Shown here one piece after another: positions 26,984 through 29,058 of a stretch of DNA of 37,593 bases. The notes beneath the pieces were generated by a model. That model was not told the DNA's origin. It ran no database searches and saw nothing but the letters and a program-made list of their open reading frames with translations. Location: the IMG/VR virus record IMGVR_UViG_3300038701_000977, positions 1 through 37,593 of that record; one strand, given 5' to 3'. Origin of the DNA: a virus. The position numbers and the translations under genes are program-made. Numbering within the stretch: the stretch's first letter is position 1; each line of letters opens with the position of its first letter.

Positions 26984-27060
26984 CCGTCGCCCCGCCAGAA
27001 CCAAATTCCCCGCTGGTCGCGGCGCTGATGGCTGCGAAGGCCGAGAGGGCAGGCCGGTGA
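26980..27060 (+). CDS. 26-residue coupled mini-gene
   Basis: M-T-V-A-P-P-E-P-N-S-P-L-V-A-A-L-M, then a short Ala-rich helix ending in G-R. It overlaps the previous stop (ATGA) and the methyltransferase start (GTGA), the same coupling used throughout this operon, which supports translation. P-P-x-P-N-S-P-L-V is seen at the start of short phage proteins. The role is unknown. Confidence 0.5.
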   Translation: MTVAPPEPNSPLVAALMAAKAERAGR

Positions 27061-27785
27061 AAAAGCTGCGTGTCCTTGATTTGTTTAGCGGCGCTGGGAT
27101 GTTTTCTCTCGGGCTGGAACGCACGGGAGGGTTTGAGACTATCGCATTCTGCGAGATTGAAGAATATCCCCGCCGCGTTTTGGAGAGACATTGGCCGGAT
27201 GTGCCAATTTGCAAGGATGTGTGGAATGCACAGTTTCGACGCTTTGAACCCGTGGACGTGGTTACGGCGGGCTTTCCCTGTCAAGACATTTCACACGCTG
27301 GAAAGGGCGCCGGACTTACCGGAGACAATTCGTCTCTCTTCTGGGCTGTGCTTCGAGCCTCTCGCCTGGTGGGACGGCCCAAACTGTTGTTGGAGAACGT
27401 GGCAGCGCTGCTTAATCGAGGGATGGGCGCGGTTCTCGGGGCCTTGGCCTCGGTCGGGTATGACGCGGAATGGCATTGCATACCAGCGTCCGCCGTTGGT
27501 GCCCCACACCAGAGGGATCGCGTCTGGATTGTTGCCGACCCCATCAGGGACCAGCAACCACGGCAAGAACCATGTGTCAGGGCGTTTGGACGAATGGGGC
27601 GGGTCGAGCAATCCATGGCGTGGGACGAGCATTGGCAAGACGCATTCGCCCGCCTTCGAGGAATGGATGATGGGAATGCCAGAAGCGTGGACAGAACTGA
27701 CATAACGCGCAATTCGTTAGTCCCCCAAATTCCCGAAATGATTGGCTACGCAATTCTAGAAGCGGAAATGGAAAATCATGCGTGA
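27057..27785 (+). CDS. DNA (cytosine-5) methyltransferase
   Basis: 242 residues from GTG 27057. Motif I is D-L-F-S-G-A-G-M-F-S at 8-17, motif IV has the catalytic C75 in G-F-P-C-Q-D-I-S, motif VI is E-N-V at 113-115 and motif VIII is Q-R-D-R at 152-155. The end has S-L-V-P-Q-I-P-E-M-I-G (motif X region), but the usual G-N before it reads R-N. The target-recognition part between VIII and IX is very short. It would methylate cytosine in a short site, likely to evade restriction. The DNA of the second half is also open in another frame that looks like a separate phage family. Confidence 0.88.
   Translation: MKKLRVLDLFSGAGMFSLGLERTGGFETIAFCEIEEYPRRVLERHWPDVPICKDVWNAQFRRFEPVDVVTAGFPCQDISHAGKGAGLTGDNSSLFWAVLRASRLVGRPKLLLENVAALLNRGMGAVLGALASVGYDAEWHCIPASAVGAPHQRDRVWIVADPIRDQQPRQEPCVRAFGRMGRVEQSMAWDEHWQDAFARLRGMDDGNARSVDRTDITRNSLVPQIPEMIGYAILEAEMENHA
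27070..27705 (+). CDS. Possible overprinted gene inside the methyltransferase (alternate frame)
   Basis: 211 codons open from GTG 27070; the convincing part is about 27340-27705. It reads C-C-W-R-T-W-Q-R-C-L-I-E-G-W, then G-P-W-P-R-S-G-M-T-R-N-G-I-A-Y-Q, then S-G-L-L-P-T-P, and ends F-E-E-W-M-M-G-M-P-E-A-W-T-E-L. I recognise this order (W-R-T-x-Q-x-C-L, W-P-R-S-G-M, L-P-T-P, E-W-x-M-G-x-P-x-x-W-T) as a phage protein family that normally accompanies a Dcm-type methyltransferase. Here it lies in another frame of the methyltransferase itself. It may be an overlapping gene or a mark of past frame change; no start site is convincing. Confidence 0.4.
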   Translation: MSLICLAALGCFLSGWNAREGLRLSHSARLKNIPAAFWRDIGRMCQFARMCGMHSFDALNPWTWLRRAFPVKTFHTLERAPDLPETIRLSSGLCFEPLAWWDGPNCCWRTWQRCLIEGWARFSGPWPRSGMTRNGIAYQRPPLVPHTRGIASGLLPTPSGTSNHGKNHVSGRLDEWGGSSNPWRGTSIGKTHSPAFEEWMMGMPEAWTELT

Positions 27786-27957
27786 CCTGTGGCATCCTGA
27801 CATTGTTCCCGGAGAACCAAACTCCGGCGACGAGGCGAACCTTACGAAATGGGGCTGGCCTTCGCCTGCGCTATTGCAACGCCACAACCGCGACAAGCCT
27901 GCGACCGGTAATCTGTGGACCGGCCCGACTAAGGAACAGCCTGACCCGCCGTTTTAG
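27778..27957 (+). CDS. 59-residue protein after the methyltransferase
   Basis: From ATG 27778, overlapping the methyltransferase stop by 8 bp. Reads M-R-D-L-W-H-P-D-I-V-P-G-E-P-N-S-G, then K-W-G-W-P-S-P-A-L-L-Q-R-H, ending in P-D-P-P-F. Pro/Trp-rich, no family recognised. It is the last gene before the terminator. Confidence 0.6.
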   Translation: MRDLWHPDIVPGEPNSGDEANLTKWGWPSPALLQRHNRDKPATGNLWTGPTKEQPDPPF

Positions 27958-27999
27958 TTGGCTACTGCCGCCGCGCCTGGTCATGTGCGCGGCAAACTG

Positions 28000-28025
28000 C
28001 CGGGGCCTAGCGCCCCGGTTTTTTT
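28000..28025 (+). terminator. Intrinsic terminator of the methyltransferase operon
   Basis: CCGGGGC (28000-28006), loop CTAGC, GCCCCGG (28012-28018), then seven T (28019-28025). A textbook rho-independent terminator for rightward transcription. It overlaps the stop codon of the leftward gene at 28007, so the two convergent operons meet here. Confidence 0.88.
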
Positions 28026-28354
28026 ATGTCCAGCATCTTGGCGACGACCGGCAGCAACTCGAAGTCCGGGCCATGCCGCGCAACCCATGAACGCTTTGCG
28101 GCGTGATAGCCGTTAGGCCCTTGGTGGCAGTCATAGCATAGCGGGATAACGCGCCAGTCAGATCGGGGCTGCTTATCACCGGTGACGTGGTGCGCTTGTG
28201 AGGGCGGCGGCGCACCGCAGGCGACACACGGCAGGGCCTTGACCCTCGCCATGTGTTCCCATGCCCCCTGCGCCCTCTCTGCGGCCTTGTGCGCCCGCTT
28301 TTTGGCGCTGACAGGTTTTAGAACGGATTTACGCATGATTGGTGTGCGCCTCAT
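28007..28354 (-). CDS. HNH nuclease, Ref/DUF968-like
   Basis: 115 residues. A basic N-terminus (M-R-R-T-P-I-M-R-K-S) is followed by C43-x2-C46 (C-V-A-C-G-A), H55-H56 (Q-A-H-H-V), and C73-x2-C76-H77 (L-C-Y-D-C-H-Q-G), the metal and catalytic pattern of small HNH nucleases such as Ref or DUF968/NinG-type recombination proteins. In the lambda-like setting it would process recombination intermediates with the annealing protein of this operon. Its start overlaps the stop of an inserted homing endonuclease. Confidence 0.75.
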   Translation of the reverse strand: MRRTPIMRKSVLKPVSAKKRAHKAAERAQGAWEHMARVKALPCVACGAPPPSQAHHVTGDKQPRSDWRVIPLCYDCHQGPNGYHAAKRSWVARHGPDFELLPVVAKMLDIKKPGR

Positions 28355-28926
28355 GATTCTGACCGATTTCGGCGTCCATGCCTTTCGGTAAAGCCGTTTT
28401 TCTTGTTAAATTCGGCGCGAGCAGTTGCGGCGTCTTGCAAGTCCCGAAAACTACCAATGTATTTTTGGCGACCGTTTAACCTAGCAGAAGCCACCCATTT
28501 CCCGTAAGTTTTACACCAATACACGCCACAATATCCGCTTTTGTTATCAGAGCGCGCGCTCTTGTTGCGTTGGTTTCCGGAATTGCTCACTTCACGCAAA
28601 TTTTCAATTCGATTGTCGGACCTGTTGCCGTTTATGTGATCAATTTGATCCTCTGGCCATTTGCCGTAGTGAACAACCCAAGCAACGCGATGTGCCTTGA
28701 GGTGCTTTCCTCCTATCTTGCCATGCTTGTATCCATTGCCGTCGTCAACGGAAAAAGCTTCCCGTCCTGCGAAACGCGCATTCCATGCCGCGCAAATATT
28801 TTCCTTAGGATGCTTTCCGTCCGTAAAGTCGTGGGGTGACCTTTTAAGCCAAAACAACATTCCAGTGCTCGGCTCGTATCGCACCAACTTGCGCAACAAT
28901 TCAGGTGATAGTATATCTTTTGTCAT
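28351..28926 (-). CDS. Homing endonuclease, HNH plus AP2
   Basis: 191 residues from ATG 28926, with AGGAAA upstream; the frame stays open to GTG 29058. The HNH domain is at about 79-118 (A-H-R-V-A-W, I-D-H-I-N-G-N, D-N-R-I-E-N-L-R-E). The AP2 DNA-binding domain is at about 131-180 (G-Y-C-G-V-Y-W, W-V-A-S-A-R, Y-I-G-S-F, A-A-T-A-R-A-E-F). Free-standing enzymes of this type cut phage genomes lacking them and spread by repair. Codons are more AT-rich than those of neighbours, which fits recent arrival. It sits between two recombination genes. Confidence 0.9.
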   Translation of the reverse strand: MTKDILSPELLRKLVRYEPSTGMLFWLKRSPHDFTDGKHPKENICAAWNARFAGREAFSVDDGNGYKHGKIGGKHLKAHRVAWVVHYGKWPEDQIDHINGNRSDNRIENLREVSNSGNQRNKSARSDNKSGYCGVYWCKTYGKWVASARLNGRQKYIGSFRDLQDAATARAEFNKKNGFTERHGRRNRSES

Positions 28927-29022
28927 CGGCGTTTTTCCTTTGTCAAGACGCTGGTCATGGGGCGGGATGTTGGCGCATCGCCGCCCCACATTTATACATA
29001 TCAACACAAAAGGCGTCAACGC

Positions 29023-29058
29023 AGATGGCGTCTTGCGCTTGAGCGGGCTGCGTTTCAC
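29023..29058 (-). pseudogene. 5' remnant of the interrupted HNH gene
   Basis: GTG at 29058 forms a GTGA overlap with the stop of the NinB-like gene and encodes M-K-R-S-P-L-K-R-K-T-P, the usual start of phage HNH/NinG-type proteins. It resembles the start of the gene at 28354 (M-R-R-T-P-I-M-R-K-S). After about 11 codons the sequence loses protein character and leads into the homing endonuclease. I read it as the original start, separated from the body by insertion. The end coordinate is approximate. Confidence 0.45.

Follow-up and report, generated by a model that had tools for sequence, protein, structure and literature searches.

A viral C5-cytosine methyltransferase gene carries a nested second frame that probably encodes a companion subunit

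The gene for the small chain of the C5-cytosine methyltransferase M.EcoHK31I was reportedly found by Lee, Kam and Shaw in 1995 to lie nested in another frame of the large-chain gene, and M.EcoHK31I-like systems are characterized by this placement of one gene inside the other and by a requirement for both chains in methylation. In nature, M.EcoHK31I consists of two chains, the large one bearing motifs I-VIII and X and the small one motif IX (PMC3404938). M.AquI likewise occurs naturally as a C5 methyltransferase divided between two chains (PMC3404938); it differs from the locus described here in that the split is inside the variable region and motifs IX and X are both on the small chain, which brings it nearer to the type found in the phage Corndog. 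For Corndog, overlapping methylase segments with coding potential in the overlap were described in the Cluster O paper, which reports that similar arrangements occur elsewhere and leaves open the choice among two products, a frameshift, a hop or an intron (PMC4351075); the Corndog products were not found by mass spectrometry (PMC4351075). The overlapping two-chain kind is therefore already known, from M.EcoHK31I and from the Corndog case that was left open. In the searchable literature, only these two papers approach an earlier account of phage C5 methyltransferases with nested chains. A 2025 report of a 'hidden HNH in a phage methylase' (PMC11855218) was considered as a precedent and rejected, as it concerns a different arrangement, an inserted homing endonuclease. 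As far as that literature shows, what is new here is the dual-frame selection, the assignment of the recognition segment and motif IX to the second chain, the breadth of the family and the apparently obligate pairing of its two chains.

The locus lies in a virus record of 37,593 bases, the whole of which is the window analysed here. At a probability of about 0.9, we read it as a two-subunit C5-cytosine methyltransferase of the M.EcoHK31I kind, the subunits of which are nested and overprinted in one gene. The catalytic chain (alpha) and the putative second chain (beta), together with their parts, are as follows.

27057-27785, plus strand: alpha, predicted C5-cytosine methyltransferase catalytic chain, GTG start, 242 aa
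27078-27113, plus strand: alpha motif I (DLFSGAGMFSLG), predicted AdoMet binding, from the sequence, alignment A7 and hhalign to M.HhaI
27213-27217, plus strand: AAGGA, candidate ribosome-binding site, 8 nt before the beta ATG at 27226, from the sequence
27226-27705, plus strand: beta, 159 aa, open frame in the +1 frame of alpha, putative ATG start
27270-27293, plus strand: alpha motif IV (GFPCQDIS) with the predicted catalytic Cys, from alignment A7
27340-27534, plus strand: beta N-terminal region over alpha motifs VI-VIII (WRTWQRCL..WPRSGMTRNGIAY..LLPTP), from third-position divergence, recoding and phrog_1008
27393-27401, plus strand: alpha motif VI (ENV), E113 and N114 invariant in alignment A7
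27501-27533, plus strand: alpha motif VIII (APHQRDRVWIV), R153 and R155 invariant in alignment A7
27535-27639, plus strand: beta segment in the target-recognition position (PTPSGTSNHGKNHVSGRLDEWGGSSNPWRGTSIGK), from identity across relatives and beta-frame codon periodicity
27640-27699, plus strand: beta motif IX (THSPAFEEWMMGMPEAWTEL), from a profile match to M.HhaI motif IX
27705-27764, plus strand: alpha motif X (TRNSLVPQIPEMIGYAILEA), directly 3' of the beta end, from hhalign to M.HhaI motif X
27999-28019, plus strand: likely terminator of the transcription unit, downstream of alpha/beta, 8-bp G+C-rich stem and T tail

The likeness to M.EcoHK31I is one of architecture, compared by description rather than by subunit sequences. 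As in M.EcoHK31I and M.EaeI (two-subunit, site YGGCCR), the large chain carries motifs I-VIII and X without IX, and the small chain, here beta, holds motif IX. The two systems differ in that alpha/beta is carried by a phage and none of the neighbouring genes scanned was recognised as a restriction enzyme, and in the placing of the recognition domain, which the published account predicts on the large chain of M.EcoHK31I but which is assigned to beta here by position and conservation. The methylase pair gp7/gp6 of Corndog (gp6/gp5 of Firecracker) is a detectable homologue in the same relative frame, with motif IX on beta; in those phages, however, the beta chain includes motif X and the two genes overlap in a staggered way, whereas here the genes are nested and motif X is on alpha. 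The same nested architecture is found in the C-5 cytosine-specific DNA methylase of Vibrio phage 1.091.O (AUR86966.1), whose beta is ~50% identical and whose annotation covers the alpha frame only.

A first-pass annotation of this DNA had described a methyltransferase frame with motifs I, IV, VI, VIII and X, and this was borne out. Alpha matches PF00145 in Pfam (E=5e-33) and phrog_363 (E=5e-65), and GAGAGGG at 27043-27049 lies 7 nt upstream of its GTG. Motifs I, IV (PCQ), VI (ENV) and VIII stand in order on one chain, the arrangement by which C5 methyltransferases are recognised, and within motif IV G72, F73, C75 and S79 are invariant and P74, Q76 and D77 nearly invariant in alignment A7. The AF2 model of alpha (pLDDT 84.9) aligns with M.HhaI (2i9k_A, VIA-align) at a Z of 24.5 and an rmsd of 3.1 over 223 residues, with motif X as a well-folded helix; low confidence is confined to residues ~165-218, which is exactly the stretch overprinted by the end of beta. 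The spacing from motif VIII to motif X is ~55 residues, compared with ~130 in M.HhaI, which leaves alpha too short there to accommodate motif IX together with a recognition domain; a match to motif IX was looked for in this stretch and not found. Alpha is not a single-chain C5 methyltransferase: motif IX and, on our reading, the recognition domain sit in the beta frame. The proposal made earlier, that an alternate frame might explain the very short target domain, fits this arrangement, as beta holds motif IX and the segment in the recognition position.

The +1 frame of alpha is open from 27061 to 27702, with a stop at 27703-27705, and reads WRTWQRCL, WPRSGM, LLPTP and EEWMMGMPEAWTEL. These peptides had been noted over 27340-27705 and are present exactly; the interval also agrees with the extent of dual-frame constraint. 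ATG 27226, with AAGGA 8 nt upstream, is the likely start codon; ATG 27217 and TTG 27244 are other candidates. The AAGGA element is not conserved in relatives, and an ATG occurs near the beta start position in 140 of 206 loci, the start codon not being sharply conserved. A universal beta ATG arising from the conserved D54-V55 of alpha was considered and rejected, as GAT is not enriched there (69 GAT versus 111 GAC).

The coding status of beta was assessed against null sequences made by synonymous replacement or shuffling of the alpha codons, which leaves the alpha protein unchanged. In 2% of these recodings, no stop interrupts the 159 codons of beta. With the four nearest relatives left out of the beta family model, the real beta scored 218.7 bits, 9-11 sd above recodings that averaged 71-88 bits and reached a maximum of 121-135. 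When the recoding was limited to sub-regions, the N-terminal region of beta scored 124.9 bits against a null maximum of 93.9, and the N- and C-terminal halves each passed separately. The beta core is open in 130/130 loci tested, with ~22 expected; because the loci are relatives of one another and were retrieved with beta, their openness is supportive rather than independent. The null scores also show that similarity in the alternate frame is partly a shadow of alpha conservation. A bare BLAST match is therefore no proof, and simple BLAST matches overstate the case; the recoding, codon-position and control tests allow for this component.

Codon-position rates were obtained by a sliding analysis of the alpha/beta region among ten relatives. 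Alpha third positions diverge by 0.67 in the single-frame parts, by 0.50 over 27226-27534 and by 0.29 over 27535-27702, the last two values being lower than in the single-frame parts at p=1e-8 and p=6e-17, respectively. Alpha first positions, which are the wobble positions of beta, diverge by up to 0.47 over 27535-27702. Codon periodicity switches to the beta frame over this interval and returns to alpha after the beta stop, and dual-frame constraint becomes visible at ~27330-27350 and ends at 27702. A check for purifying selection in both frames, which the first-pass annotation had called for, was in this way answered positively.

It could be argued that the frame is only a passive shadow, kept open and similar by alpha residues and codon usage and giving no product; alpha recodings do still reach 71-88 bits on the beta model, and two canonical methyltransferases (L229 and L236) yield weak beta matches. 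However, the real beta stands far above that null, alpha wobble positions are conserved precisely where beta lies, and the +1 frame of other C5 methyltransferases contains many stops. A set of 24 such enzymes, taken from gammaproteobacterial genomes, shows 6-24 stops in this frame in 23 members and 4 in the remaining one, a short fragment; a significant beta match was seen in 0/24. We give the passive shadow practically no chance; to judge from the sequence tests, it is already refuted at the level of selection. The recoding nulls, the codon-position rates and the control methyltransferases instead indicate that beta is a genuine coding sequence, with both frames under selection, and uphold the earlier suggestion that two meaningful proteins are overprinted in one stretch.

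The C-terminal part of beta can be compared with known enzymes. A 19-residue profile of the beta C-terminus matches M.HhaI best at motif IX (KLHPRECARVMGYPDSYKV, residues 273-291), and 0/20000 shuffles equalled it. In 15 of 21 canonical methyltransferases, namely those with a recognisable motif X, the profile falls on motif IX, ~30 aa before motif X. In Firecracker (L007:2013-2576) and in a Streptomyces locus (L051), the beta frame itself carries IX and then X, as expected of a genuine motif IX. For Corndog, the Cluster O paper describes an HHpred match between the C-terminus of beta and the C-terminal helices of M.HaeIII (PMC4351075). These comparisons identify the C-terminal end of beta as motif IX. 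The Firecracker and Streptomyces loci represent a second architecture, with X after IX in the beta frame and staggered genes, as in Corndog-like mycobacteriophages.

The 35 residues that precede motif IX (PTPSGTSNHGKNHVSGRLDEWGG...) share 86-91% identity among enzymes with alpha chains that are only 35-46% identical. Such behaviour is as expected of a specificity module that is shared or exchanged among enzymes and is read in the alternate frame. The alignment of the segment to the recognition domain of M.HhaI is weak (hhalign probability ~2%), and it is its position and modular behaviour that suggest a recognition domain. The loci sharing the 27535-27639 segment at 86-91% (L018, L020, L024 and L029) have alpha chains of just 35-39% identity and beta N-terminal halves that hardly align.

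On the DNA, the motifs follow the canonical order across the two frames: I-VIII in alpha, the recognition segment and IX in beta, and X in alpha. The same order would suit programmed +1 frameshifting after motif VIII, which would yield a single fused chain of I-VIII with the recognition segment and IX, and PMC4351075 names a frameshift, a hop or an intron as possibilities. We regard frameshifting as very improbable. The beta frame is constrained over alpha motifs VI-VIII, upstream of any useful slip site, in a part that a slip after VIII would leave untranslated; reaching motif X, which in the nested type is again read in the alpha frame, would take a second shift; and in Firecracker a stop immediately precedes the beta ATG in the beta frame. 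With regard to an intron, RT-PCR gave no splicing in Cluster O phages (PMC4351075).

The family is broad. A tblastn search with the beta frame gave 229 phage records, and further beta searches gave two sets of viral contigs, of 26 and 80 (with at least 519 relatives in the scan), as well as 21 bacterial contigs. Among loci found through beta, a methyltransferase overlaps in the same +1 relative frame in 136/136, 132 of them by an automatic alpha-profile test at +1 and the other four by ORF coordinates; among loci found through alpha, beta is present at +1 in 80/80. No free-standing beta was seen in the 136 beta-found loci or the bacterial loci checked, and the pairing of alpha and beta is apparently obligate. 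The first-pass annotation had assigned the alternate frame to a companion family usually adjoining Dcm-type genes; this is not supported, as in all of these loci it lies inside the methyltransferase gene itself. The same annotation had named two signs of a spurious frame, an absence of matches outside phages in which it overlaps the methyltransferase, together with stop codons among close relatives. The first is indeed observed, which is what a nested subunit predicts, but the second is not, the beta core being open in every locus tested.

In bacteria, a beta-profile match was found in 14/369 sampled gammaproteobacterial genomes (about 4%), a few of the 14 being shadow matches on canonical enzymes. 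Apparent stops within beta in some bacterial genomes do not disrupt the frame, being located past motif IX, at the natural end of beta, with the exception of L236, a canonical enzyme with a shadow match. In one gammaproteobacterial genome (L216:1308-2015), alpha has a single TAG before motif VIII and beta is intact to motif IX, which may reflect either a decaying prophage or stop-codon reassignment. Among eight phage records inspected in detail, both chains are annotated only in that of Firecracker.

Phrog_1008, a phage family labelled 'DNA methyltransferase', matches beta residues 15-118 (E=1.5e-16) and the Firecracker beta at E=1.1e-58, and sequence searches of Pfam, NCBIfam and PDB with beta gave no match. 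Modelled alone, beta is weak (pLDDT 69, pTM 0.43), and a fold search of PDB with this model gave no match and no Z of 2 or more; for the N-terminal half, no relative was recognised outside the beta family. The missing Pfam family and PDB fold, and the isolation of the N-terminal half, would also suit a beta that is real and nested but acts apart from the methyltransferase, perhaps as a regulator or as an anti-defence protein aimed at a separate target. Yet the motif IX at the beta end is exactly the part missing from alpha, IX and X occur together in the beta of some relatives, and alpha and beta of the nested type were never found apart (136 + 80 loci), which makes a non-subunit role very improbable.

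We therefore return to the two-subunit enzyme as the preferred reading. The sequence itself shows that two frames are coding, how they are offset, which motifs each holds and how widespread the pair is; the rest of the reading is inferred. Alpha would bind AdoMet and carry out catalysis through motifs I-VIII and would also supply the motif X helix at its C-terminus, and the C-terminal half of beta would supply the recognition segment and motif IX, while the N-terminal half of beta, which overprints alpha motifs IV-VIII, probably docks on alpha. Both chains would be made from the same mRNA, beta by internal initiation, presumably at 27226, and would assemble into one active methyltransferase in which beta picks the target site. 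Methylation of the phage DNA would most likely shield it against host restriction.

For the origin of this arrangement, a wider scenario can be put forward, to which we give an even chance. The recognition/IX part of a once canonical enzyme would have slipped to the +1 frame, and the out-of-frame readings of its neighbours would have become functional as the N-terminal half of beta and the variable region of alpha; the recognition segment would evolve and move between enzymes in the alternate frame, and the result would be a large, mostly unannotated phage and prophage class of two overprinted chains. Descent of beta from a methyltransferase is plausible, as are a single origin of the overlap and the frame slip.

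Phage and prophage 'DNA cytosine methyltransferases' may often be annotated as a lone catalytic chain, with the specificity subunit hidden out of frame. If so, neither specificity prediction nor cloning would succeed when based solely on the annotated chain. The selection test also addresses the question left by PMC4351075 among two products, a frameshift, a hop and an intron, and favours two products. In addition, the family is a clear-cut natural example in which the same bases encode two conserved proteins that probably interact, and should be useful for studying the origin and constraint of overprinted genes.

Downstream of alpha, a 59-codon ORF (27778-27957, plus strand), for which no Pfam match was found in the part scanned, lies before the terminator, its ATG overlapping the alpha stop (ATGCGTGA). 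On the minus strand, two endonuclease-like genes (28007-29058), one RecA-dependent nuclease/DUF968-like and the other HNH_3, lie beside NinB-like and exonuclease genes, and this endonuclease-like pair converges on the methyltransferase unit at the terminator-like hairpin at 27999-28019.
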